DNA of 64,000 bases, from NCBI RefSeq assembly GCF_001429295.1, contig NZ_LMJL01000008.1, positions 537,360 through 601,359 on the forward strand. Reading direction: 5' to 3'. This document shows, piece after piece, positions 9,553 through 23,616 of the stretch (position 1 is the first letter of the stretch; each line of letters begins with the position of its first letter). The notes under the pieces are model-generated. The model was not told the DNA's origin and ran no database searches. It saw only the letters and a list, made by a program, of their open reading frames with translations. The position numbers were made by a program, and so were the translations under genes. This stretch comes from Flavobacterium sp. Root935. Its GTDB lineage: Bacteria; Bacteroidota; Bacteroidia; Flavobacteriales; Flavobacteriaceae.

Positions 9553-10188
9553 TTATTTATCATCGCCTTCTGTGGCGTCAAAATTAATAGTATTATAAGC
9601 CGCTTCTGTTAAGGTAGTATCAGCTTCTTTTTCTTCGTTTAAAGTTTGAACCAAAAGTGATACTGCTTCATCTTCACCTAGTGTTTTAGCAAACGCTGCA
9701 AGTGTTCCGTATGTTGCAATTTCATAATGTTCAATTTTTTGAGATGCTGCAATAATTCCGGCATCACGAACTGCTCCTTGCTCTGTCTCTTCCATAATTC
9801 CTTCACCTTCTTTGATCAAGCCTTCCATTGCATCGCATTTTTTTGCAACAGCTTTTTCTCCAACAGATGCAAAAACTTCTTCTAAGCGGGTAACTTGTCC
9901 TTCAGTAACTTTTAAATGCTCATTAATTGCATCAATAAGATTTTGAGAGGTTGCATTTTTAGCCATTTTTGGTAATGCTTTAGTCAAAGCTTTTTCTGCC
10001 CAATAAATATCTTTTAAAGAGTCAACAAATAAGTCTCTTAATCCTTCTGCTGCTGATGATTTAGCTTTTACAGTTCCTTTTGGTGCAGCTGTTTTAGATG
10101 CACTTGTCTTAGACGCACTTGTTTTAGATGCGTTTGTTTTAGATGCAGCTGGCTTTTTTGCAGCTGTCTTTGTATTTGAATCTTTCAT
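9553..10188 (-). CDS. DUF892 (YciE/YciF) ferritin-like protein with basic repeat tail
   Basis: The ATG at 10188 gives MKDSNTKT and is preferred to the ATG 42 bp upstream, which would add a hydrophobic piece unlike the family. The 211-residue product has a Lys/Ala/Ser/Thr tail (about 1-48) with four ASKT-type pentapeptides. It then has a DUF892 domain: LRDLFVDSLKDIYWAEKAL, the HLKVTEGQVTRLEEVF helix, KCDAMEGLIKEGE, and KIEHYEIATYGTL...A..LGE...LL..TL.EEKEAD. The conserved Glu and His positions are those of the four-helix ferritin-like di-iron fold. The tail resembles a nucleic-acid-binding tail, suggesting DNA association. A close paralog is at 18014. Family members in enterobacteria are stress-induced. 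Confidence 0.9.
   Translation of the reverse strand: MKDSNTKTAAKKPAASKTNASKTSASKTSASKTAAPKGTVKAKSSAAEGLRDLFVDSLKDIYWAEKALTKALPKMAKNATSQNLIDAINEHLKVTEGQVTRLEEVFASVGEKAVAKKCDAMEGLIKEGEGIMEETEQGAVRDAGIIAASQKIEHYEIATYGTLAAFAKTLGEDEAVSLLVQTLNEEKEADTTLTEAAYNTINFDATEGDDK
10091..10150 (-). repeat. Four 15-bp tandem repeats inside the DUF892 gene
   Basis: There are four consecutive 15-bp units at 10091, 10106, 10121 and 10136 with consensus GTTTTAGATGCACTT on the plus strand. They encode ASKT plus one variable residue. The units differ by a few bases and remain in frame, so unit gain or loss would change tail length without a frameshift. Confidence 0.85.
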
Positions 10189-10214
10189 GATAATAATTTT
10201 TAAAATTAGTTTAT

Positions 10215-10222
10215 CAAATGTA
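10215..10222 (-). promoter_or_regulatory. Candidate -7 box (TACATTTG) for the DUF892 gene
   Basis: On the minus strand TACATTTGATAAA (10210-10222) lies 22-34 bp before the start at 10188. The same 13 bases occur upstream of the catalase at 15750-15762. The first 8 fit TAnnTTTG. Confidence 0.45.
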
Positions 10223-10459
10223 GGGAGCATTCAAACAGTTAGCTTATACAATTCTAATTCAATATTATAACATTCAAATATTTGAATATCAACCAGTAGA
10301 AAATTGAAAAAAATATAATGAATTCTTAGCTACTATTAAATTAGGTTGTATAAAATTGGGAAATCAAATACTAAAACTATAGTTTAATTTCTTGCAAAAT
10401 ATAAAAGTTCGTTTTTTATAATACACTACTTTTTCCAATAATTGTGGTATATTTACACC

Positions 10460-10885
10460 ATGAGAAGAAATGGAGAAATCATTATAATAGAAGACGACGA
10501 AGATGACAGAAATTTTCTTAAAGATATCTTTGATAGTCTGGGCTACCCGAACAAAATTGTATTCATTGAAGACCCTACACTTGCAATTCCTTATTTGTTA
10601 AAACCTCAGACAAATCCTTTTCTTATTCTTTCGGACATTAATATGCCGAAAATTGATGGATTCGAACTTCGCAGCCAGATTCTTGCTCATGACGGAATAA
10701 GTCAAAAATGTGTGCCTTATATTTTTCTTTCTACTTCAAAAAATCCTGAAAATGTAACTAAAGCTTACAATTATAATGTGCAGGGTTATTTTACGAAAGA
10801 AGAAAATTTCCCAACATACAAGTTAATGATTCAAAATATCATGGAATATTGGCGTACAAGTTTAACTCCTTCATCGTCTCATTAA
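10460..10885 (+). CDS. CheY-like response regulator (single receiver domain)
   Basis: I choose the ATG at 10460 (MRRNGEIIIIEDDEDD) over one 18 bp upstream because receiver domains normally open directly with the first beta strand. The product is about 141 residues. The acidic pocket is EDDEDD, the phospho-acceptor Asp sits in LILSDINMPKIDG, the switch Ser/Thr in FLSTSKNP and the conserved Lys in YFTKEEN. There is no output domain, so it acts as a shuttle or modulator. The DxxMP..DG form with extra residues in loop 4 resembles Rcp1-type regulators that partner PAS-rich or phytochrome-like kinases. The large PAS kinase at 11385 is the obvious candidate partner. Confidence 0.85.
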   Translation: MRRNGEIIIIEDDEDDRNFLKDIFDSLGYPNKIVFIEDPTLAIPYLLKPQTNPFLILSDINMPKIDGFELRSQILAHDGISQKCVPYIFLSTSKNPENVTKAYNYNVQGYFTKEENFPTYKLMIQNIMEYWRTSLTPSSSH

Positions 10886-10941: not shown

Positions 10942-11322
10942 TTATTGTAGTACAGATTTGAGCATACTAATGAGTTCATCATAACTATTGGGCTTACTCA
11001 TATAGTGTATAATTTCTTTTTTTTGCAATAAGTCCTGAACAAATTCTTGGGAAGGCGTTGAAATCAAGATTACAGGTATGTCTTTCAGTTTCTCATGACT
11101 TTTTATTTTCTGCAGAAACTCTTTACCATTTAAAAGTGGCATATTGTAATCTAGAAATATCAAATCAGGAAGCTTTTCGGCGCTTTCTAATTTATTGAAT
11201 GCATTAACGGGGTTACTTTCGACGCGAAAAACTATTTCTGTGTCGATACTATAGACCGCTTCCATGAATATTTCAGCGTCATCTATATCATCATCAATGA
11301 GTAGAATTTCTTTGTATAACAT
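10942..11322 (-). CDS. CheY-like response regulator adjacent to the PAS kinase
   Basis: This 126-residue stand-alone receiver has the acidic triad DDDIDD, the acceptor Asp in LIFLDYNMPLLNG, Ser/Thr in VILISTPS and Lys in YMSKPN. It is codirectional with the eight-PAS kinase and 62 bp downstream, so it is probably co-transcribed with it. The kinase itself lacks a receiver, which makes this the most likely phosphate acceptor. It converges on the other CheY-like gene at 10460. It has no DNA-binding domain, so any transcriptional effect must be indirect. Confidence 0.87.
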   Translation of the reverse strand: MLYKEILLIDDDIDDAEIFMEAVYSIDTEIVFRVESNPVNAFNKLESAEKLPDLIFLDYNMPLLNGKEFLQKIKSHEKLKDIPVILISTPSQEFVQDLLQKKEIIHYMSKPNSYDELISMLKSVLQ

Positions 11323-11384: not shown

Positions 11385-14300
11385 TTAAATACTATTTCTA
11401 TCTTTTGGGAAATCTGGCAGGAAAATATGGAATGTGCATCCTTCTCCTAATTGAGATTCTGCAAATAAAACTCCTTGATGATTCATAACAATTCTTCTGC
11501 ACAAAGCAAGACCAATACCGCTTCCTGGAAAAATATTCTGTCCATGCAGACGTTTGAAAATTTCAAAAATTTTATTTTTATAATCTTCCTTAAAGCCAAT
11601 TCCGTTATCGGTAAATGAAATATGATGATACTCGCCTAGTACTAGCGGAGAATCTGTAAACTGCGCTACATACTCTCGAGAAACTAAAGTCGAACTAACT
11701 TTAATCTGTGGTATAACCTCTGGATTAGTAAATTTTAAAGAATTACTCATTAGATTATAAAACAGCTGATTCATTTGTAAACCTACAGCCTGAACCACTG
11801 GCAGTTTTCCCATTTCAATCACTGCTTTTTTCTCTTCAATAGCCAGCTCAAAATCAGTCCATATATTTTCTATTACTTTATTTAAATCTACAGGCTGTAA
11901 ACTTTTCTCGGGTTGTATTAATCGAGAAAAACTTAGAAGATCTGAAATCAACTGACTCATACGCGCTGCTGAAAAAGCAATTTTTTCCACTAAAGTTTTC
12001 GGATTTCTTCCTGAATTTTCTTCCTGTAGCAAACCTGCAAAAATTCGAATTTTTCGTAAAGGTTCTTGAAGGTCGTGACTGGCTACATATGCAAATTGTG
12101 CTAGTTCTTCGTTAGAATGTTTCAAGGCATAGTTGGTTTGCTCCAAATCTAAATTAGAAGCCTGCAGCTCTTGTAAAACAGTTTCAAGTTCTCTGGTTCT
12201 AAGTGCTACTTCAATCTCCAGTTCCAATTGCAGTTCACGCTGAATCGTAATGTCTTGTGCCGTCCCGCTAATTGTTAGTGGTTTGCCCTCTATATCAAAA
12301 TACGTTTGCCCAACAGCATGAATTACTTTTTCCTTTCCGCTTTCTCCATGAATAATGCGGTATTCAGCTTCGTACTTTCCGCTAGATCCTGCTTGTTGTG
12401 CGGCAAAGAAAGCCTCTGTTACCCGTTTATGATCTGAAGGCTTGATAAGCGCTTGTATATCTTGAGATGATACATGAGTACCATTAAGTCCAAACATTTC
12501 GGCATGGCGTTCAGAAACGGTACTCATTCTTGTATTGACATCCATTGACCATGTACCTAACTGTGCTAGTTCTACAGCAGATCGAAGTGCTTCCTCAGCT
12601 TGTTCAATTTTCTTAATTGCATTGATCTCTGTTGTAACATCAGAACTTACATACAGTACCGCATATACTTCACCCTTACTATCCATCAAAGGCGTAAGAC
12701 TTATATTGTGATACTGCGGCGTTTCTTCTGTAGTATGGATATCTGCTACCCCATTGGCAGCCAAATGTTCTCCACTGCGATAAACCTCTTGTACGGCTTT
12801 TATAAATTCAGGAGAACTTCCTTCCAAGACTGTAATTAAGGATTGTTGCTCTATTGAATCTCCTTTATTTATTTTCTTTATAAAGGGTTCATTTGCATTC
12901 TCAATAATTAAATCCTCGCCTACAAATAAACTTATAGATACAGGCGCAGCTGCTAATACCGAACGAAGTTTAGATTCGCTTTCTCGAAGTGCAATCTCCG
13001 TTAATTTACTCTGTGTGATATCAGTAGCATGAACAATTAAGCCAATTACTTTTCCTTCGTTATTTTTATGCGGCGTATATACAATACTAAGCCATCTGGT
13101 AACTCCCATTCTCGAAGGAGCAAACATTTCATATTTCTCCTGCTCACCTCCGTAAGCGACCTCAAGATGCGGAAGTGTTTTTGCATAGGCAGCTTCTCCT
13201 AAAAACTCCCGTACACTTTTACCAATGGCTTCATGTTCATTTACAGAGAACCACCCCATAAATACACTGTTATAAGTTTGATAACGCTGTTCTTCGTCCA
13301 GATAAAAAATCATGGCCGGAACAGTATCTCTTAATAACTGCAGATGGGCTTCACTATCTTCCATTGCTTTTTGTGCCATAACCTGTGCCGTGACATCAAT
13401 AGCAATATCTAAAATTGCATAAATCTCTCCTGCCTTGTTACGCAGTGGTGTATACGAAATATTATAATAATTATCATTAAGGACTCCATTCTGGTTTATT
13501 TTGACCAGCGAAGCAGGTGAAATAAAAGGAACTCCCGTAGTAAAAATATCATCGAGTATTTTAAGGTATGCTTGACCTTCAGTTATCAATTCTGGCATAG
13601 CTTCTCGCAACGGAAGTCCTTTAATATCTGGTCCTTTACCTACTATATCAATAAAAGTCTGGTTAGGATATTCTATAATAAGATCCCGGCCAACAAATAG
13701 ACCTATACCAGCGGGAGCGGCAGCAATCAGGGTTTTTAATTTGGTTTCGCTCTCCTCTACTTCACGGCGGCTTAGGACCTGTTGCGTTACGTCGGTAGCT
13801 ACTACTAATAAAACTGTTGCATCTCCAAGCGCATTGTGGTTAAGCTGATAAGTTAAGTCAACATACACATCTTCGAGCCTGCCTTTGCGGAGCAATTCTA
13901 CTTCTACTTCTTTGGCAATATAGGCATTACCTGTTTGGATCACTTGTCTTAAAAGGTCGTCAAATCCCTGACCTTTTAGTTCTGGAAGTGCCTCCAAAAG
14001 TGGTTTCCCAATAATTTCATGAGGCTGGCGCCCTACCAATTCACAATAAAATTTATTAGCATTTTGAAAAATCAAATCTTCTTCTATACTAATAGTAGCA
14101 ATACCTACAGGTGACTGTTCGAACATTGTTACCAACTCATCCTGACGTGCTATTATTTCCTGCTGGGCCCTAAATGATGAGGTAACATCAGAAGCCATAA
14201 CGAGAATGGCATAAACAGTATTTTTCTCATCACGTAAAGGTGTAAGGGAGTAATCGAAATACTGTTCTAGATTCGATTTTTCGTTTCGAATTCTGATTCC

Positions 14301-15422
14301 AGAAATTTTATATTCTTCTCCCGTTACATAAACTTCATTGAGCTTTCTATATAAATCCTCGTAATCTTTACCTGAAAAGACTTCTTTTATCTTCTTGCCG
14401 ATAATAGCAATGTCTTTTGACCAGTATTCCATCATTGCATCGTTGACCAATTCAATATAAAATTCACTGCCACGAAATAAAGCAGTACCAACAGGAGCTT
14501 TTTCAATAAGTGCACGAAAACGAAGTTCACTGACCTGCAATTGTTTTTCTTTTTCTTTTTCGGCAGTTATATCTATAGCAATTGCTGTAATATATTTTTC
14601 TCCCGCTGTATCTTTGACTAAAGAAATACTATTGTTAACCCAAATGACAGAACCGTCTTTACAGATGTAGCGTTTGGTAATTAGAAAATCCTTTCCATTT
14701 GCAATACAATCTTTTAAAAGGATCATATTGTTTTCTAAATCATCAGGATGAGTTAGTTCTCCCAGATTCATTTTTAATATTTCCTCTCTGCTGTAACCCA
14801 GCATTTGACAGTAGCGGTCATTAACTTCTATTACCCGCCCTTCAATATTGGCTTGTGCAATTCCTGCATTGGACTGCATTAAAACGCTGTTGAGCTGTGA
14901 TCGAACAGATCCAGATTCTATAAGATCGGGAATAATTGCTGAATTTTCTGTACAGGTGACAAAAACACCTTCAATTGTATTATTGGAATTGAAAATAGAA
15001 CTATATCCCAGAGTCAGGTATACGCGTTGTGAAACGTTATTTCTATTGAGAACTGTTACAATATTAGATTCAGATCTAGAAATACCATCATCTATCATAT
15101 TATAAATAGCATCAGACACACTTTTCCATTCCAGCGGCAAAGTTTCTTTTAATGATTTTCCTAAAGCATGCGGATGCTTTTCTGTACCAGAAAGAAAGGG
15201 GCGAAAAGAATCATTATAAAAAAAAATCTTGTCTTTTCCCCATACAACAAACATAGGAATACTCGAACCAAACATAATACTCAAAGCTGTACGAAGACTA
15301 TTCGGCCAAGATTCTGTTTCTCCCAAAGAGGTATTACTCCATTTCATTTCCCTTACTAGGGTTCCTAATTCTCCTCCATTTTTTAGAAATGAATTTTCGA
15401 ATTCTTTTTTACTTAACTGCAC
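11385..15422 (-). CDS. Sensor histidine kinase with about eight PAS domains
   Basis: This 1345-residue protein has no transmembrane segment and should sense in the cytosol. It opens with a diverged PAS unit (about 20-150, SWPNSLRTALSIMFGSS). Seven more PAS/PAC units follow, at about 175-290, 300-420, 430-550, 560-685, 695-820, 825-950 and 960-1085. Several end in the PAC-like pattern (I)AI..DIT. Units near 565 and 830 share AAP...LFVG.DLIIE..N and look like recent duplicates. A coiled helix then leads to HisKA with phospho-acceptor His1116 in ASHDLQEPLRK. The HATPase domain shows the N-box NQLFYNLMSNSLKF, DNGIGF and GSGIGLALCRRI. There is no receiver domain; the adjacent CheY-like gene probably accepts the phosphate. 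Confidence 0.92.
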   Translation of the reverse strand: MQLSKKEFENSFLKNGGELGTLVREMKWSNTSLGETESWPNSLRTALSIMFGSSIPMFVVWGKDKIFFYNDSFRPFLSGTEKHPHALGKSLKETLPLEWKSVSDAIYNMIDDGISRSESNIVTVLNRNNVSQRVYLTLGYSSIFNSNNTIEGVFVTCTENSAIIPDLIESGSVRSQLNSVLMQSNAGIAQANIEGRVIEVNDRYCQMLGYSREEILKMNLGELTHPDDLENNMILLKDCIANGKDFLITKRYICKDGSVIWVNNSISLVKDTAGEKYITAIAIDITAEKEKEKQLQVSELRFRALIEKAPVGTALFRGSEFYIELVNDAMMEYWSKDIAIIGKKIKEVFSGKDYEDLYRKLNEVYVTGEEYKISGIRIRNEKSNLEQYFDYSLTPLRDEKNTVYAILVMASDVTSSFRAQQEIIARQDELVTMFEQSPVGIATISIEEDLIFQNANKFYCELVGRQPHEIIGKPLLEALPELKGQGFDDLLRQVIQTGNAYIAKEVEVELLRKGRLEDVYVDLTYQLNHNALGDATVLLVVATDVTQQVLSRREVEESETKLKTLIAAAPAGIGLFVGRDLIIEYPNQTFIDIVGKGPDIKGLPLREAMPELITEGQAYLKILDDIFTTGVPFISPASLVKINQNGVLNDNYYNISYTPLRNKAGEIYAILDIAIDVTAQVMAQKAMEDSEAHLQLLRDTVPAMIFYLDEEQRYQTYNSVFMGWFSVNEHEAIGKSVREFLGEAAYAKTLPHLEVAYGGEQEKYEMFAPSRMGVTRWLSIVYTPHKNNEGKVIGLIVHATDITQSKLTEIALRESESKLRSVLAAAPVSISLFVGEDLIIENANEPFIKKINKGDSIEQQSLITVLEGSSPEFIKAVQEVYRSGEHLAANGVADIHTTEETPQYHNISLTPLMDSKGEVYAVLYVSSDVTTEINAIKKIEQAEEALRSAVELAQLGTWSMDVNTRMSTVSERHAEMFGLNGTHVSSQDIQALIKPSDHKRVTEAFFAAQQAGSSGKYEAEYRIIHGESGKEKVIHAVGQTYFDIEGKPLTISGTAQDITIQRELQLELEIEVALRTRELETVLQELQASNLDLEQTNYALKHSNEELAQFAYVASHDLQEPLRKIRIFAGLLQEENSGRNPKTLVEKIAFSAARMSQLISDLLSFSRLIQPEKSLQPVDLNKVIENIWTDFELAIEEKKAVIEMGKLPVVQAVGLQMNQLFYNLMSNSLKFTNPEVIPQIKVSSTLVSREYVAQFTDSPLVLGEYHHISFTDNGIGFKEDYKNKIFEIFKRLHGQNIFPGSGIGLALCRRIVMNHQGVLFAESQLGEGCTFHIFLPDFPKDRNSI

Positions 15423-15854: not shown

Positions 15855-17996
15855 ATGAAAAATTTTCAAGACGAAAAACAACGCGATTTATCAATCAACA
15901 AATCAGATGGCACAAACAAATTTCTAACCACAGATCAAGGCCTTCGAATTAATGATGATAACAACTCGCTGAAAGCTGGAGAAAGAGGACCTTCTCTACT
16001 CGAGGATTTCATACTAAGGGAAAAAATAACGCATTTTGACCACGAAAGAATTCCAGAAAGAATTGTTCACGCACGCGGATCAGGAGCACATGGATTTTTT
16101 GAAGTAACCAATCCAATTCCAGAATTAACTAAAGCAGGTTTTCTTAAAGAAAAAGGTCTTAAAACTCCTGTTTTTGCAAGATTTTCTACTGTTGCAGGAT
16201 CAAGAGGCTCCACAGATCTTGCTAGAGACGCCAGAGGTTTCGCAGTTAAATTTTATACTCAAGAAGGTATTTATGATTTAGTTGCAAACAACATTCCTGT
16301 GTTTTTTATACAAGATGCCGCTAAATTTCCCGATCTTATTCACGCAGTAAAACCAGAACCTCATAATGAAATGCCGCAAGCTGCATCTGCGCATGATACT
16401 TTTTGGGATTTCATTTCATTAATGCCAGAATCCATGCACATGATCATGTGGGTAATGTCTGATCGCGCCATTCCGAGAAGTTATAGAATGATGGAAGGTT
16501 TTGGAGTGCACACGTTCAGATTGATCAACGAAAGAGAAGAATCTGTTTTTGTGAAATTTCACTGGAAACCTAAATTAGGAACTCACGCTGTTGCTTGGGA
16601 TGAAGCGCAAAAAATTTCAGGAAAAAACCCAGATTTTCACAGAGAAGATCTTTGGGAAGCAATTGAAATGGGTAATTTCCCAGAATGGGAATTAGGCGTT
16701 CAGGTAATTCCTGCTGAGGATGAAAATAAGTACGAATTTGATCTTCTTGACCCAACAAAATTGGTTCCAGAAGAATTAGTTCCTGTAACTATTGTCGGCC
16801 GTATGGTTCTGAACAAAAATCCAGATAATTTCTTTGCAGAAACAGAGCAAATTGCTTTTCACCCAGGTCATATTGTACCAGGAATCGATTTTAGTAATGA
16901 TCCGCTTCTACAAGGAAGATTATTTTCATATACAGATACACAACTTTCTAGATTAGGAAGTCCGAACTTCCATGAAATTCCAATTAACAGAAGCGTAGCT
17001 CCAGTTCACAACAATCAACGTGACGGACACATGCGTCAGGAAATTAATAAAGGTCGTGTAAGTTATCATCCAAATTCACTTGGCGGAGGCTGTCCTTATC
17101 AAGCAAAAATTGAACAAGGCGGTTTTGCAAGTTTTAACGAACGAGTTGATGCGCACAAAGTAAGAGAAAGAAGCGAAAGCTTTAATGATCATTTTGGACA
17201 GGCAAAATTATTTTTTAACAGCCAGACTCCAGAAGAAAAAAGCCATATTGTAAAAGCATTGCGTTTTGAACTTGGCAAAGTAGAAACTACTGCCATAAGA
17301 GTTAGAGTGTTAGGACTGCTTTCGCAAATTGATACCACTCTTGCTGAAAAAGTGGCTCTTGGACTTGGAGCTACTGTTCCGCCAATTTTGGAAACGCCGA
17401 TTAATAAAGGTGTATCTCCTGAAAACGAAGGCGGTCCTCAAGAACCTCAAACTGTAGAATCTAGTGTTTCTGCTTCAGAAGCATTGAGCATGATTAAAAA
17501 TCCAACAAATTCACCAACAATTGCTTCTAGAAAAGTAGCCATTATTTGTTCTGATGGTGTTTCTGAAGCTGCTGTTCTGAATATGAAAAAAGCACTTAAA
17601 AAAGAAGACGCTAAGGGATGTATTATTGCGCCACATTTAGGGTCAATTATAACTGATTCTGATGGTGCAATTGCTGCCGAATTTAGTTTTTTAACGGCTT
17701 CATCGGTATTATTTGATGCTGTTTACATTCCACACGGATTAGGATTAAATGCATTGGCAGAAAATGAAGATCTTCTAGAATTCGTTAATGACGCTTACAA
17801 ACACTGTAAAGTTATTGGAGCAGATGGCGAAGCATCAGAAATCATCAGCAGCGCACCTTTTGCTTCAAAAATCACAAATGATGACGCTGGAATTATTATA
17901 ACAAGCGATGTAGCAACTGAAGGATTTGCTCAAGATTTTATCGCTGCAATGACAATGCACCGTTTTTGGCAGCGTGAACCAAACTTATACAATTAA
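15855..17996 (+). CDS. katE: Large-subunit catalase (HPII/KatE type) with C-terminal DJ-1-like domain
   Basis: This 713-residue monofunctional heme catalase decomposes hydrogen peroxide. The active-site His72 lies in [16 protein letters not shown]. The distal Asn and Phe region is around [15 protein letters not shown]. The heme-ligand Tyr359 lies in [14 protein letters not shown]. Residues about 555-713 are the extra flavodoxin/DJ-1-like domain ([14 protein letters not shown], then ADGEASEI) found only in large-subunit catalases. The length matches clade-2 enzymes of 700-750 residues. There is no signal peptide, so it is cytosolic. It leads a two-gene operon with the DUF892 protein 17 bp downstream and shares a 13-base promoter-region motif with the other DUF892 gene. 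Confidence 0.95.
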
Positions 17997-18013: not shown

Positions 18014-18577
18014 ATGAAAAATTCAGAAAAACCTATAGAAAACAAAACAGCAAAAAATAACAAGAATTTTGTTGAACCTGCATCAGACGCTGCAACAGAA
18101 TTAAAAGATCTTTTTATTGACAGTCTTAAAGACATTTACTGGGCTGAAAATGCATTAGTAGGTGCCCTTCCAAAAATGGCTGACAACGCTACTGATCCAG
18201 GGCTTGCTAGTGCTGTATTAGAACATCTTGATGTCACAAAAAACCAAGTTAAAAGATTAGAACAAGTTTTTGATCTTTTAGGTGAAAAAGCCGAAGGAAA
18301 AAAATGTGAAGCAATGGCTGGACTTCTTAAAGAAGGAGACAGCATTCTTTTAGAAACTACTCCTGGAGCGGTGAGAGATGCTGGAATAATTGCCGCATCG
18401 CAAAAAATAGAACATTATGAAATTGCAACATACGGAACCTTAGTCGCTTTTGCCAAAACGCTGGGAGAGAATGATGCTGCAAAATTATTAACGCAAACTC
18501 TTGCAGAAGAAAAAGAAGCTGACTGCATACTGAATGATGTAGCTTTAAATGCAGTTAATATTGTAGCAGCCGAATAA
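18014..18577 (+). CDS. DUF892 (YciE/YciF) ferritin-like protein, catalase operon
   Basis: This 187-residue paralog of the protein at 9553 has a shorter polar N-terminal tail (KNSEKPIENKTAKNN). The domain is the same: LKDLFIDSLKDIYWAENAL, HLDVTKNQVKRLEQVFDLLGE, KCEAMAGLLKEGD and KIEHYEIATYGTL.AFAKTLGE. It is predicted to be a four-helix ferritin-like protein with a possible di-iron site. Its start lies 17 bp after the catalase stop, so the two are co-transcribed. Pairing a peroxide-removing catalase with an iron-binding protein would limit Fenton chemistry, which is inference from context. A strong terminator follows at 18617. Confidence 0.92.
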   Translation: MKNSEKPIENKTAKNNKNFVEPASDAATELKDLFIDSLKDIYWAENALVGALPKMADNATDPGLASAVLEHLDVTKNQVKRLEQVFDLLGEKAEGKKCEAMAGLLKEGDSILLETTPGAVRDAGIIAASQKIEHYEIATYGTLVAFAKTLGENDAAKLLTQTLAEEKEADCILNDVALNAVNIVAAE

Positions 18578-18998: not shown

Positions 18999-19280
18999 AT
19001 GAATTTAGATGAAAAAGAAAATTACGGGCAAAAAGACCAGTATTTTCAAAACGACCGAGATGAATATGAAGATCCAGATATTGATTTGCCTCCTGTAGAT
19101 CATTCTATTACAGAAAATGCAGAACCAGATTATAGTACGGATTTCGTTATTAATGAAGATGCCAATCTTGAAGAAGAGGACGATGATGATTTAGAAAATG
19201 ATCTTGACGATGAAGATGACGAAGATCAAGATTCTGAAGAAAGTATTAAGAAAGAAAGAGACACTTATGATAACGAATAA
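18999..19280 (+). CDS. Small highly acidic protein (93 aa)
   Basis: The product begins MNLDEKENYGQKDQ. From about residue 20 it is dominated by Asp and Glu, including the run NLEEEDDDDLENDLDDEDDE. A short hydrophobic patch (STDFVIN) lies near 47-53, and the C-terminus is more mixed (SIKKERDTYDNE). There is no signal peptide or membrane segment. Acidic low-complexity proteins of this kind are common in Flavobacteriia but uncharacterised. It lies directly after the lysine-rich 54-residue gene. Opposite charges suggest the products could associate, which is inference. The terminator at 19299 ends the unit. Confidence 0.75.
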   Translation: MNLDEKENYGQKDQYFQNDRDEYEDPDIDLPPVDHSITENAEPDYSTDFVINEDANLEEEDDDDLENDLDDEDDEDQDSEESIKKERDTYDNE

Positions 19281-19298: not shown

Positions 19299-19326
19299 AA
19301 GCCGCCTAATTTAGGCGGCTTCTTTA
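19299..19326. terminator. Bidirectional terminator between acidic gene and stressosome operon
   Basis: An 11-bp palindromic stem AAGCCGCCTAA / TTAGGCGGCTT (19299-19321) is followed by TCTTTATTT. It separates two convergent units. Confidence 0.8.
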
Positions 19327-19337
19327 TTTATATGGTC

Positions 19338-20966
19338 TTAAACAGGCAGATAAATCCAAAAAGTTGTTCCTTCTTCAGGAATACTGGTGAAGTTAATAAT
19401 TCCGTTATGATTTTCAATAATACGTCTGCAGAGAGCAAGACCTATACCATTTCCGCCGTACTGATCTCTTTGGTGCAGACGCTGGAACATATCAAAAATA
19501 CGGCTTGAATATTCATTATTCATTCCGATACCATTATCTGCAATCGAGATTACGTGAAAGTTACCTACAGGAGCAGCCTGATCAAAAGATTTGTCGCTGC
19601 TAGCTGAGATTTCTTGATAAGATATATTTACCGCTGGTTGTAAAGTATTAAATTTTAACGCATTATTTATCAAATTATAAAATAACTGACGAAGCTGAGG
19701 TTCAAGCCCAGTCACAGTTGGAAGCACATTTACGTTTACAATTGCATTTTTTTCTTCGATAATCAGGCTTAAATCATCTAAAGTTTCTGAGATGACTTCA
19801 TTAAGATCAACTTTGCCAATAAATTTATCATGATTATTAATGCGAGAGTAATTCAGTACATCTGATATTAAATTGGACAATCGGCCCGCAGCAGAGGTTA
19901 TCTTATCAAAATAATACAGTTGTTTCTGCTCTTCAGTCAGATGTTCTGATGCGCGTGACAGCATGATCATAATTTTTCGAAGTGGTTCCTGCAGGTCATG
20001 ACTGGCTATAAAAGCAAATTGCTCCAGCTCTTTATTTTTGAATTTTAATTTTGAATTTGCACTTTCGAGCTCAAGCTGAATCTCCTTTAATTCTGAATTG
20101 TCTTTTAGGGCTTCAACAATCATTTTCTGAGCATTATTATTGACAAAATAAATAAGCCAGCTGCTAAAAGAACCATCTTCAGATTTATTTGGTATAATAG
20201 AAACATTATGCCAGATATAATAATCATCTTTTTTAATTCTAATATCTGCCGAAAAATCTCCTCTAATCTTTTTGGCTCTGCTCCATCCTTCAATCAAAAG
20301 ATCTACATCATCATCATGTATAAAAGTACTTATGCTTTTTTTATCAAAAGAACTAAAAGGTGCTGTTAAATAGGCTTCGAAGGCATTATTTGAAAGCAGT
20401 ACATTATTGCGGTCATTTACAATACAGATTAAAACAGGAATAGTGTCAACTAACTTTCTATAGCGATTTTCACTTTCTCCAAGCTTTTCGGAAAGTGCTA
20501 CAAGCTCAATATTCTTTTTTCTGATTTCATCATAAGCAGATATTGGCGGTTCGTATTTAAAGTAGTCTACCAATGTCTTTATTTTTGCATCTGAAAGAAG
20601 TCCTGGTGAAGGCACTTGATGACTGAGAGTGGTTTTTGAATGGTTATCTGTATAAATATATTCTATATTTCCAGATATTTTGGCTGCATATTTATACGCC
20701 TCGGGATTGCATTTTTTCAGATCAACTTCATCCGTAAGAACAGCCAATATCTCTTTTTGAGTAGCTCTGATAATATTAATTCCTAATACCAGTACAGAGT
20801 TTTTTCCATTAGCTATGGAACATCTTGCTACTTCTGAAACTGCTGTCGAAAATCTGGTTTGAGCCTGTAAAGGCATGCCACACATTTCCGCAATTTTCAT
20901 TGAACGCTTATGGGCCAGTATAAGGTCCATTTCATTATCAAGATTAATTTTTACAATTTCCTTCAT
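19338..20966 (-). CDS. PAS histidine kinase with N-terminal pseudo-RsbT domain, last gene of the stressosome operon
   Basis: Residues 1-110 resemble an RsbT/RsbW-type GHKL ATPase: LQAQTRFSTAVSEVARCSIANGK aligns with the N-box of the neighbouring RsbT, S.T.ATSELVRNLLKYGGG. The N-box Asn is Cys49, and no DxGxGI box follows, so nucleotide binding is probably lost. Residues about 160-285 are a PAS/PAC domain (RKLVDTIPVLICIVND). HisKA carries His323 in ASHDLQEPLRK. The HATPase domain is intact (QLFYNLINNALKF, DNGIGM, GNGIGLALCRRI). There is no membrane segment or receiver. It starts 5 nt after the phosphatase stop. It is probably the output kinase of the RsbRST module. Confidence 0.88.
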   Translation of the reverse strand: MKEIVKINLDNEMDLILAHKRSMKIAEMCGMPLQAQTRFSTAVSEVARCSIANGKNSVLVLGINIIRATQKEILAVLTDEVDLKKCNPEAYKYAAKISGNIEYIYTDNHSKTTLSHQVPSPGLLSDAKIKTLVDYFKYEPPISAYDEIRKKNIELVALSEKLGESENRYRKLVDTIPVLICIVNDRNNVLLSNNAFEAYLTAPFSSFDKKSISTFIHDDDVDLLIEGWSRAKKIRGDFSADIRIKKDDYYIWHNVSIIPNKSEDGSFSSWLIYFVNNNAQKMIVEALKDNSELKEIQLELESANSKLKFKNKELEQFAFIASHDLQEPLRKIMIMLSRASEHLTEEQKQLYYFDKITSAAGRLSNLISDVLNYSRINNHDKFIGKVDLNEVISETLDDLSLIIEEKNAIVNVNVLPTVTGLEPQLRQLFYNLINNALKFNTLQPAVNISYQEISASSDKSFDQAAPVGNFHVISIADNGIGMNNEYSSRIFDMFQRLHQRDQYGGNGIGLALCRRIIENHNGIINFTSIPEEGTTFWIYLPV

Positions 20967-20971
20967 GATCC

Positions 20972-21985
20972 CTAAAATATTTTTCCAACCAAAATTGTAG
21001 CATCATCTGTTCCTCTTACATTGTCTTTATATAAAGCCGAAGCAATAATACCAGGACTTTGCTTAATTATCGAAGTCAGCTCAGCGAGATTCCATCTAGT
21101 ACGGAGTCCGTCGCTGTGCATAATAATAATTTGATGTTTTTGATAAGGAACAACCGTATTGTTTAAGGTACGTGGTATATTATGCCCAATAATACCATTG
21201 TAAGGCGTATAAGTTTTATTATCAAGTCCGTTATAGATACGTGTATTGATATTTCCTATACCGCATATATTCCAAGTTTCGGTTGTATAATCTGCGCAGG
21301 CAATAGTTGCGACAAGTCCCCTGCTCTTTTTAGCATGTTCGTGAACATATCGTAAAATAGATGTCGGATCGTTCTCTGTACATTGTTTAAAGGCTCTTAT
21401 AGCCTGCTGTACGGCTTCATTTGCTTTTGCACCGTGGCCTAATCCGTCGCCGCAAAAAATCTGAAAACCTTTTTTACTATATTTAATGTAATATCCATCC
21501 CCGCAAACTCTTTCACCAGGATAATTTACACTTATAGCAGAAAGGTTTAATTCATTTTCTGAATGGATAACGGAAAAATCAGCCTTATCACAAATTTTTA
21601 TATACTGCACAGTACCCCATCCGCGCATGGAGTAAATCTGAAAATCATTACTTAATCTTTTGATTGCTCCAAGTCCCTGACCAAGTGTGTTTGAAGTAGA
21701 GTAACCATCATTCATTATTTTGGTTACATTTTCAATTCCTATTCCTTTATCCAGACAGTAAATTTCTATTTCATTATGACTTCCGTTGTAATGCGCTCTA
21801 TAAAGCAGATCACCGCCGTCGGCATATTTAATAAGGTTAGAAGTAAGTTCTGCAATTATAATATCCGTTTCAGCAGCTCTGTGTGGTGTAAAACCTAACT
21901 GTAATGCTAAATTATGTATTTCTCTTTTTATAAAAGCAATTAAGCTCCTATCGTCAATTTTGTAAACGGAAAAAGTATTATCCAT
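20972..21985 (-). CDS. RsbT-like ATPase fused to PP2C/SpoIIE phosphatase (RsbX/RsbU-like)
   Basis: Residues 1-130 form a GHKL ATPase with an intact N-box (DIIIAELTSNLIKYADGG; Glu46, Asn50), DKGIGI and the Gly-rich lid STSNTLGQGLGAIKRL. Residues about 145-335 are a PP2C-type phosphatase with metal-binding Asp motifs GERVCGDGYY, FCGDGLGHG, HSDGL and GTDDATI. In Bacillus, RsbX (a PP2C) resets RsbS and RsbR, and RsbU (a PP2C) is activated by RsbT. Here an RsbT-type domain is joined to the phosphatase, so either feedback or output is possible. The start overlaps the rsbT stop by 8 nt, indicating translational coupling. Confidence 0.88.
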   Translation of the reverse strand: MDNTFSVYKIDDRSLIAFIKREIHNLALQLGFTPHRAAETDIIIAELTSNLIKYADGGDLLYRAHYNGSHNEIEIYCLDKGIGIENVTKIMNDGYSTSNTLGQGLGAIKRLSNDFQIYSMRGWGTVQYIKICDKADFSVIHSENELNLSAISVNYPGERVCGDGYYIKYSKKGFQIFCGDGLGHGAKANEAVQQAIRAFKQCTENDPTSILRYVHEHAKKSRGLVATIACADYTTETWNICGIGNINTRIYNGLDNKTYTPYNGIIGHNIPRTLNNTVVPYQKHQIIIMHSDGLRTRWNLAELTSIIKQSPGIIASALYKDNVRGTDDATILVGKIF

Positions 21986-22391
21986 TTTTCCATTTTATTA
22001 TAGTAACGGTTGTACCGTTTCCTAATTCGGTTTGTATATCAAATTCATTCACTAGTCTTTTTGTCCCTGGCAAGCCAAGTCCAAGACTTTTTCCGGTGCT
22101 GTATCCATCCTGCATAGCCATTCCAATATCTTTTATTCCCGGTCCTTTATCAATAAAAGTCACACGCACGCCATTATCGCGTCCGTTGCTTACAGATTCA
22201 ATAATGACTTTTCCTCCTCCGCCATACTTTAAAAGATTACGGACGAGTTCGCTTGTGGCCGTAATTAATTTGGTTTGATTTAAAATACTCATTCCAATCT
22301 GTACGCCATATTCCTTTACACGATTGCGTAACGGAACTACATCCTGCTCTTTTACAATAAGCAGTTCTTCTTTATTCGTTGCTGTCGTCAT
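21978..22391 (-). CDS. rsbT: Stressosome serine kinase RsbT
   Basis: I choose the ATG at 22391 (MTTATNKEELLIVKEQ). The longer frame would place 63 nt inside rsbS and add an unrelated Lys/Arg/Cys stretch. The 137-residue product is a single GHKL ATPase with N-box ATSELVRNLLKYGGGG (Glu48, Asn52), DKGPGI and the lid DGYSTGKSLGLGLPGTKRL, all diagnostic of RsbT rather than RsbW. It should phosphorylate RsbR and RsbS and leave the stressosome upon stress to activate a partner. Its start lies 20 nt inside rsbS and its stop overlaps the phosphatase gene. Confidence 0.92.
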   Translation of the reverse strand: MTTATNKEELLIVKEQDVVPLRNRVKEYGVQIGMSILNQTKLITATSELVRNLLKYGGGGKVIIESVSNGRDNGVRVTFIDKGPGIKDIGMAMQDGYSTGKSLGLGLPGTKRLVNEFDIQTELGNGTTVTIIKWKNG

Positions 22392-22770
22392 ATACCTGCT
22401 CCTCGTTATCGCCATTGTACATTTTCGCGCGAAGCAAATCCATGCCTTTTTCAACGTTTAAGGCACTTATAACACCATTTAAAGATAATCCAAGTTCGAC
22501 GAGTGTAATAGCCACTGCTGGTTGCATACCTACTACGACTGTTTGTGCATCCATAATTTTTGACATTACCGCAATATTTCCTAAAATTCGTCCCATAAAA
22601 GAGTCAATAATAGAAACCGCTGATATGTCAATTAGGACACCCTTTGAATTATGTTTATTTATAGTATTTATTAAATCAGATTCAAGATTTTCCGCTAATT
22701 GGTCATACAAATCTACTTGTATTGTAACTAGAAGAAAATCTCCCATCTTGAGTATAGGAATTCTTTCCAT
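22372..22770 (-). CDS. rsbS: Stressosome STAS scaffold RsbS
   Basis: This 132-residue single STAS domain opens MERIPILKMGDFLLVTIQVDL, as in RsbS, and carries the phosphorylatable Ser57 in LIDISAVSIIDSFMGR. It continues with VVVGMQPAVAITLVELG. In Bacillus the equivalent serine is phosphorylated by RsbT. A C-terminal acidic tail (NGDNEEQVYDDSNE) extends beyond the usual length, and part of it is translated from DNA shared with the rsbT start. It lies 18 nt downstream of rsbR. Confidence 0.93.
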   Translation of the reverse strand: MERIPILKMGDFLLVTIQVDLYDQLAENLESDLINTINKHNSKGVLIDISAVSIIDSFMGRILGNIAVMSKIMDAQTVVVGMQPAVAITLVELGLSLNGVISALNVEKGMDLLRAKMYNGDNEEQVYDDSNE

Positions 22771-22788
22771 TTCAATAATCTTAATTCG

Positions 22789-23616
22789 TTATTTTCTCTT
22801 CACAACCGTAAGCTGAAGCATGTCAAAAGCTGTTTGAAGAGCGCTTGCAAGTGAAGCTTTGGTAATAATTCCTGTAAGATCTATTCCTAAATGCACTACA
22901 GTCTGTGCAATTTCAGGACGAATACCACTAATGATACATTCTGCTCCCATTAATCTGGTTGCACTTACCGTTTTGATAAGATGTTGTGCTACAAGCGAAT
23001 CTACTGCAGGCACTCCTGAAATATCAAGTATAGCAATAGAACTTCCTGTATCAACAATCTGCTGTAAAAGATTTTCCATTACAACCTGAGTTCTTGAGCT
23101 GTCAAGTGTACCAATAATAGGCAGTGCCACAACACCGTCCCAAACTCTAATAACCGGAGTAGAAATTTCGCTGATTTCATCAATCTGTCTAGCGATAACA
23201 TCTTCACGTCCTTTCATATAAGATTCGAAAGTCAGAATCGTCATATTGTCCAAAAGTGTACTTAGCTGTAAATTTGCGTCGTATAATTTTGAAGATTCAG
23301 GCTCAATTTCTGAAAGGATTTTTGAAGCAGCTTCTTTAAAAGTAATTAAATACTGAGCATTTTCACGAGGTGAAAAACCACGTCTCCCTCTTGAACTTGA
23401 AATTCCAATTAGCAGATCATTTACTCTCTCAAATTCTTGTGAGTTTGTATTGCCGTTTGAATGCTGTAAGGCGTCTAATAAAAGGGCTGCGAACTCTTTT
23501 GATTCTTCTTCTTCTGTCGCCCCATCAGTAGAACCATTTGCTTGTAAAAGCTGAGACCATGTAGTCAATAATTTGTTTTGGTGCTCTTTCAAGCTTCCAA
23601 GGAGATTATTTTGCAT
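22789..23616 (-). CDS. rsbR: Stressosome sensor-scaffold RsbR
   Basis: This 275-residue protein has a helical N-terminal sensory region (1-145) and a C-terminal STAS domain (about 155-270). The N-terminus is not recognisably heme- or flavin-binding and resembles the non-heme globin-like domain of RsbRA. STAS motifs are VVALPIIGTLDSSR, ILDISGVPAVDSLVA and ISGIRPEIAQTVVHLGI. Ser207 and Thr239 match the two RsbRA residues phosphorylated by RsbT (Thr171 and Thr205), with Ser replacing Thr at the first. As first gene of a five-gene operon it would co-assemble with RsbS. Only one RsbR paralog is present here. Confidence 0.93.
   Translation of the reverse strand: MQNNLLGSLKEHQNKLLTTWSQLLQANGSTDGATEEEESKEFAALLLDALQHSNGNTNSQEFERVNDLLIGISSSRGRRGFSPRENAQYLITFKEAASKILSEIEPESSKLYDANLQLSTLLDNMTILTFESYMKGREDVIARQIDEISEISTPVIRVWDGVVALPIIGTLDSSRTQVVMENLLQQIVDTGSSIAILDISGVPAVDSLVAQHLIKTVSATRLMGAECIISGIRPEIAQTVVHLGIDLTGIITKASLASALQTAFDMLQLTVVKRK

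Follow-up and report, generated by a model that had tools for sequence, protein, structure and literature searches.

The stressosome operon described here lies in a 64,000-nucleotide stretch of Flavobacterium sp. Root935 (the window; all coordinates are positions in it) and runs on the minus strand from 23616 to 19338 as five tightly packed genes: rsbR, rsbS, rsbT, an RsbT-like domain fused to a PP2C phosphatase (T'X), and a PAS histidine kinase. As judged from its predicted fold and from profile comparisons, the N-terminal portion of that kinase (~120 residues, here T'') is a third RsbT/RsbW-type domain whose ATP motifs have been lost, a domain that was absent from the reading of the first-pass annotation. 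With a slight lean in its favour, we propose that the exit of this stressosome is the histidine kinase, coupled through the dead RsbT domain, which would dock on the RsbS/RsbR core.

The N-terminal domain of the kinase

The comparison covers 95 loci, the window included, among them one duplicate pair (L034 and L079, Flavobacterium limi). The named relatives are the best 80 of 197 confirmed places, and nearly all loci were fetched through matches to the fusion protein, so the sample is biased towards the fusion; the 87 distinct loci that have it are the base of the residue counts. The kinase and its parts are as follows.

T''-PAS-histidine kinase: 19338-20966, minus strand, with Pfam matches to PAS, HisKA and HATPase_c
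T'' domain, kinase residues 1-120: 20607-20966, minus strand, predicted RsbT/RsbW-type GHKL fold without ATP motifs
Start of the linker helix, kinase residues 143-165, between T'' and PAS: 20472-20540, minus strand, with a conserved [PA]Y[DE]
Kinase PAS domain (Pfam): 20166-20465, minus strand
Kinase phospho-acceptor His323: 19998-20000, minus strand, conserved in 84 of 84 loci

The kinase has no Pfam match before residue 168, and among the 25 listed of its 76 NCBIfam matches all start at residue 146 or later. A profile made from T'' alone (86 rows) finds the RsbTs of the same operons, and a second T'' profile finds RsbTs in other genomes (to 6.9e-12). When the T'' and RsbT profiles were compared with each other by hhalign, the E value was 1.8e-8 over 107 columns. 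The idea that T'' is a copy of T', the RsbT-like domain of the fusion, was rejected because the same comparison with T' is much weaker (0.0046, probability 7.6). Compared with solved sequences, the T'' sequence gave no match up to E = 1. Its structure as predicted by AlphaFold2 (AF2; pLDDT 89.2) gave 13 Foldseek matches at E <= 0.001, and all 13 are RsbW, UsfX or SpoIIAB. The VIA comparison returned Z scores of 14.3 (RsbW) to 11.9 with UsfX, RsbW and SpoIIAB, at a root-mean-square deviation of 1.8-2.9 over 103-115 residues; SiaB (10.4), LvrC (9.7) and DesK (8.2) come next. By predicted fold and sequence relation we place T'' in the RsbT family, without the motifs of a working kinase.

T'' lacks the ATP site. 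The N-box Asn is found in 3 of 84 kinases (Cys in 55), and DxGxG and GxG..G likewise in 3/84 each. Asp14, Gln36-Thr37, Ala42, Glu45 and Arg48 are kept in 83 or 84 of the 84, and all of these except Ala42 align with invariant RsbT residues in the hhalign alignment. Mean identity is 52% for T'' (residues 1-150) versus 51% for the catalytic half of the kinase. Six of the 84 kinases are short (396-403 aa) and have retained T''; L036, the one of these that was scanned, is without a PAS match. All 84 loci keep His323 and those residues of the N, G1 and G2 motifs that were checked, which marks the protein as a two-component histidine kinase. The linker motif [PA]Y[DE] falls within residues 126-165 in 84/84 kinases, against a background of 225 of 8415 40-residue stretches over all open reading frames (ORFs) of at least 200 aa, kinases included.

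T'' and the operon occur together. The order R-S-T-T'X-T''kinase, in one direction, is present in 85 of the 95 loci (84 distinct), and since it recurs so often the five-gene arrangement is not a matter of chance. Among the other ten, one lacks only R and lies at a contig start, two stop at a contig edge after T'X, five are R-S-T-X with the phosphatase unfused, L038 has R-S-T-T'X followed by a kinase with an intact RsbT domain, and L040 has RsbT only. Places were also fetched through the kinase N-terminus, 28 in all (20 of them repeats of earlier loci, one, L168 of the same species, being the window itself). All 27 that have T'' show the five-gene order; in the remaining one, L194 (genome G1085), the kinase behind R-S-T-T'X is of the kind whose RsbT domain is intact. 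Conservation of the order across Bacteroidota, which the first-pass annotation had put forward as a check, is thereby confirmed; the named relatives are Flavobacterium and other Bacteroidota (Spirosoma, Chitinophaga, Pedobacter, Mucilaginibacter, Chryseolinea and others).

Within the genus, a search with T'' alone had matches in 25 of 299 genomes. In a class sample it matched 8 of 395 genomes, seven with T'' and G1085 with its intact RsbT domain. In the phylum sample T'' is on a kinase in 8 of 395 genomes, all within the nine in which the fusion is full-length. In the last of the nine, G188, the RsbT domain of the kinase is intact. The other matches of the T'' profile at E 0.001 are RsbT-sized frames or the L038 kinase. 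The genome of Root935 itself has one T''. The operon is sporadic, yet its five parts travel together. Two copies each were seen in Flavobacterium hungaricum (L045/L082), F. ustbae (L055/L061) and Flavobacterium sp. DG2-3 (L057/L068). In one of the 85 loci (Spirosoma telluris, L122:9353-11046) T'' and the rest of the kinase are in two overlapping frames, either a split gene or a frameshift.

The core genes and the origin of the RsbT-like domains

The coordinates, strand, spacing and gene order that the first-pass annotation had assigned to the operon all hold. There is a gap of 18 nt between rsbR and rsbS, an overlap of 20 nt between rsbS and rsbT, an overlap of 8 nt between rsbT and the fusion, and a gap of 5 nt between the fusion and the kinase. 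The other parts of the operon are listed here.

rsbR: 22789-23616, minus strand, Pfam RsbRD_N (sensor domain, 8.6e-13) and STAS (6.1e-14)
RsbR Ser207: 22996-22998, minus strand, predicted phospho-acceptor
RsbR Thr239: 22900-22902, minus strand, predicted phospho-acceptor
rsbS: 22372-22770, minus strand, single STAS domain (Pfam, 5.5e-10)
RsbS Ser57: 22600-22602, minus strand, predicted phospho-acceptor
rsbT (T): 21978-22391, with ATG at 22391, minus strand, free GHKL switch kinase (Pfam HATPase_c, 1.8e-11)
T'X fusion: 20972-21985, minus strand, Pfam HATPase_c_2 (25.3 bits, below the cut-off of 27.4) and SpoIIE
T' domain, residues 1-135 of T'X: 21581-21985, minus strand, ATP motifs intact
X domain, residues ~146-337 of T'X: 20975-21550, minus strand, PP2C with its conserved Asp residues intact
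Hairpin AAGCCGCC-7-GGCGGCTT, directly 3' of the kinase stop: 19299-19321, minus strand, found by eye from the sequence

The ORF list also contains a longer rsbT that uses a TTG start at 22454. The hairpin is likely the end of the operon. At the other end, the 260 bases 5' of rsbR contain no strict match to the promoter motif TTG-N17..23-TAnnTTTG, and two loose ones.

The phospho-acceptor positions named in the first-pass annotation are present and conserved among relatives, and so are the ATP motifs that it gave to RsbT. RsbR Ser207 is kept in 86 of 86 distinct loci and Thr239 in 82 of 86 (Ile in the other four), RsbS Ser57 in 87/87, and the residues of the N, G1 and G2 motifs of RsbT that were checked in 87/87. 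SpoIIAB is the solved sequence nearest to RsbT. Gene order and the predicted phospho-acceptor residues together identify this as an RsbRST stressosome module.

A tree of 77 RsbT-like domains (138 columns) has many unresolved forks and was given a midpoint root purely for display; in it the T, the T' and the T'' domains each fall on one side of a branch. Kinases with a motif-bearing RsbT domain stand behind R-S-T-T'X at three loci (L038:9206-10582, L163:4061-5872 and L194:4864-6237), and the L163 kinase has a receiver domain at its C-terminal end. The intact-RsbT kinases of L038 and L163 join T'' (support 97/95, then 88/79), L194 having been left out of the tree; the stem of T'' is long, and long-branch attraction is possible. 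These relationships are most simply read as the fusion of an active RsbT to a kinase, with loss of the ATP site later on. If that is true, the switch kinase was copied twice, once to be fused to the reset enzyme and once to be turned into a dead coupling part.

The exit from the stressosome

In Bacillus, RsbT phosphorylates RsbS and RsbR, and RsbX resets them (PMC9237108); once freed, RsbT associates with RsbU, whose coiled-coil linker becomes ordered (PMC12143880). A hidden RsbU/RsbV/sigma-B cascade was searched for in the genome of Root935, which is 99.99% complete, and none was found. The genome has one sigma factor with region 3 (a 293-aa frame), and 25 of its 27 Sigma70_r4 matches pass the cut-off. 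Its single SpoIIE-type phosphatase is the T'X of the operon, and its three STAS matches are rsbR, rsbS and one in a 512-aa frame. A genome search with PF13581 for a free RsbW gave no small free frame besides the fusion, but it also missed the RsbT of the operon and is weak evidence on this point. The view in the first-pass annotation that this is an RsbRST module without sigma-B in a member of the Bacteroidota is supported by the sigma factor, phosphatase and STAS counts.

The same annotation had put forward both the phosphatase and the kinase as outputs of the operon. We consider this two-output model very improbable. Both genes are indeed part of the operon, as overlapping or nearly abutting neighbours, but the X domain is nearer to the Moorella thermoacetica phosphatase 3zt9 and to RsbX than to SpoIIE, both in sequence (3zt9 2.6e-32, RsbX 3.3e-19, best SpoIIE 3e-8) and in structure (3zt9 3.7e-17, RsbX 3w40 4.8e-14, next SpoIIE 6.4e-12). 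An unfused X fills the same place in five other loci, and beyond RsbR and RsbS the genome offers no STAS target except the 512-aa frame. The phosphatase is accordingly rejected as an output. With RsbX and the Moorella stressosome phosphatase as the nearest relatives of its PP2C domain, T'X is probably a feedback phosphatase that resets the core. Unlike RsbX, X is not a single-domain protein, being fused to an RsbT-like domain in 87/87 distinct loci, a set chosen for having the fusion. The fusion is predicted with a pLDDT of 90.7 and a pTM of 0.90 (AF2), and both halves keep their motifs in 87/87 loci: E46, N50, D79, G81, G83, G102, G104 and G106 in T', and D163, D180, D292, D327 and D328 in X.

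The first-pass view of the kinase as an exit is supported. Outside the Flavobacterium group (51 loci, including two records named only Flavobacteriaceae and one [Flexibacter]), 16 of 34 loci, Chryseolinea and Chitinophaga loci among them, have a single-domain receiver gene (131-170 aa) behind the kinase on the same strand, at -22 to +71 bases, which fits a two-component exit. Pfam Response_reg matched 4/4 of these 16 receivers that were scanned and the one scanned (1/1) of the two receivers seen in the Flavobacterium group. Because receiver genes follow the kinase in these relatives, the kinase probably phosphorylates a single-domain receiver. In the window the nearest receiver genes, 10942-11322 and 10442-10885, adjoin another kinase and score 99 and 70 bits against the profile of the operon receivers. 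That other kinase (11385-15422) is a 1345-aa histidine kinase with many PAS domains, which has the motif SHDLQEPLRKI in common with the kinase of the operon.

The scheme that we favour is drawn from comparisons of gene order, domain identities, motif status, the linkage of T'' to the operon, the receivers in part of the relatives and the failure to find sigma-B, while every protein contact, the direction of regulation and the phosphotransfer are what we infer. RsbR and RsbS would form the sensor core, and RsbT would phosphorylate RsbS Ser57 and RsbR Ser207 and Thr239. T'X, brought to the core by T', would reset it and would not be an exit. T'', which by prediction keeps the fold of RsbT and part of its conserved helical face but not the ATP site, would seat the kinase on the RsbS/RsbR core at the docking place of RsbT. 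Phosphorylation of the core may then act through the conserved linker helix and alter the kinase, which would hand its phosphate to a single-domain receiver, the product of an adjacent gene in some relatives and of a gene elsewhere in this genome. A more specific version, which we hold tentatively and would put somewhat below an even chance, is that the dead RsbT copy anchors the kinase on the core (and T' likewise the phosphatase) and competes there with RsbT, a single phosphorylation event then freeing all three. On this version the stressosome would lead directly into a two-component pathway, with neither RsbU_N nor a sigma factor in between.

Several observations weigh against docking of the kinase on the core as the exit. 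Of the 34 loci outside the Flavobacterium group, 18 have no receiver gene behind the kinase, within the group one lies within 400 bases on the same strand in 2 of 51 (at 246 and 278 bases), and no response regulator or receiver gene stands behind the kinase of the window. The operon is patchy even within the genus, at 25 of 299 genomes. T'' lacks the ATP lid, and it might not grip RsbS if RsbT uses the lid or the nucleotide for that purpose. RsbS is more alike than RsbT in 117 of 153 pairs of T'' operons, versus 21 of 21 pairs in RSTX operons, and the notion of RsbS as an extra-loaded, unusually constrained hub found no support in these pairs. Every contact of T'' in the scheme, finally, is a prediction from comparison.

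The main rival is a mechanism without any contact between core and kinase: RsbT, once released, would heterodimerise with T'' or grip the linker helix, and so switch the kinase. We regard this as rather unlikely. Its model is the binding of RsbT to RsbU, which activates RsbU by ordering the coiled-coil linker (PMC12143880). The linker begins with [PA]Y[DE] in all 84 kinases, and RsbU_N kinases of other Bacteroidota have SPYEM or APYEM just after RsbU_N (SPFVM in L043); this likeness is short, however, and was noticed post hoc. RsbT is also more conserved where T'' is present, with a mean identity, at similar RsbS divergence, of 71% in T'' operons against 57% in RSTX operons (18 and 7 loci; the pairs are few and non-independent). 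On the other side, T'' is RsbT-like and not RsbU_N-like, a search for RsbU_N (PF08673) in the window kinase gave no match at E 0.001, and the model presumes pairing of RsbT with itself or with a copy of itself. It is also very unlikely that the stressosome does not regulate the kinase and that T'' merely senses a ligand or serves as a structural or dimerisation cap. The lack of ATP motifs would suit such a role, and any contact of T'' with the stressosome is a predicted one, but T'' has been found only on kinases directly behind R-S-T-T'X (27/27 loci; 8 of 395 genomes) and equals the catalytic part of the protein in conservation (52% versus 51%). We take T'' to be the coupling part, and prefer docking on the core to pairing with RsbT as its means. 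A conserved RsbT domain without motifs on the output kinase, together with motif-bearing kin that group with it, offers a concrete link to the stressosome, and a small set of proteins would be enough to test it.

Known systems and neighbouring genes

RSTX modules in Bacteroidetes and two-component exits are already known from PMC9237108, which also states that most of the downstream proteins it considered had no RsbU_N that could be detected. The RSTX operon of Vibrio vulnificus described there, with VvD1-D2, is alike in its rsbR-S-T-X order, in the absence of sigma-B and in the two-component protein directly downstream. It differs in having a single-domain X, no RsbU_N detected on VvD1 and no positive interaction reported between VvRsbT and VvD1, whereas in Flavobacterium both X and the kinase have RsbT-like domains; this comparison was made with VvD1 itself left out of the T'' search. 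The Bacillus subtilis system (RsbRST, RsbX/RsbU, RsbV, RsbW and sigma-B) has RsbR, RsbS, RsbT, an RsbX-type phosphatase and the phospho-acceptor residues in common with the operon. In Flavobacterium, by contrast, RsbU, RsbV and sigma-B were not found, the probable exit is a kinase and RsbX is fused to a second RsbT-like domain. With its apparent coupling through T'', the operon suggests how stressosomes can work in bacteria without the usual stress sigma factor.

Kinases with RsbU_N behind stressosome genes occur in Proteobacteria (PMC9237108 and PMC12143880) and, in our loci, in the Bacteroidota L043, L164, L165 and L166. Like the window kinase they have an N-terminal link domain and PAS and stand behind RsbT, but the link of these four is PF08673 and their type HisKA_3, where the window kinase has an RsbT-like link and HisKA. 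In L043, L164 and L165 the RsbU_N-PAS-HisKA_3 kinase lies behind R-S-T-X and in L166 behind a lone RsbT, a second type of exit in the phylum. The RsbU_N region of L166 had a best E of 0.29 against solved sequences, with no RsbU among them.

The phosphatase 3zt9, the closest solved relative of the X domain, is presumably the protein named MtX. In SypE of Vibrio fischeri, kinase-like and PP2C domains are likewise in one protein, which acts on a STAS partner; SypE differs in having a receiver domain and in lying outside any RsbRST operon. The Moorella phosphatase 3zt9 is a single-domain chain of 193 aa, and the output in that organism is a diguanylate cyclase with RsbU_N (PMC12143880). Searches of PMC found no description of an RsbT-like domain on a kinase or of a fusion of RsbT with RsbX, an earlier mention in reviews being possible.

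Two small ORFs lie at or in the operon. A very acidic 93-aa ORF (18999-19280), with no Pfam match, converges on it. A 145-aa ORF on the plus strand (22379-22816) is antisense to rsbS and has matches in 46 loci; it is probably a mere shadow of the highly conserved rsbS. Further away, the genome has three DUF892 genes, and two of them (9553-10230 and 18014-18577) are within 15 kb of the operon. One of the two comes directly after a long gene (15855-17996) that by eye looks catalase-like, and among the 94 other loci 11 have a relative of the DUF892 gene at 18014 close to the operon.

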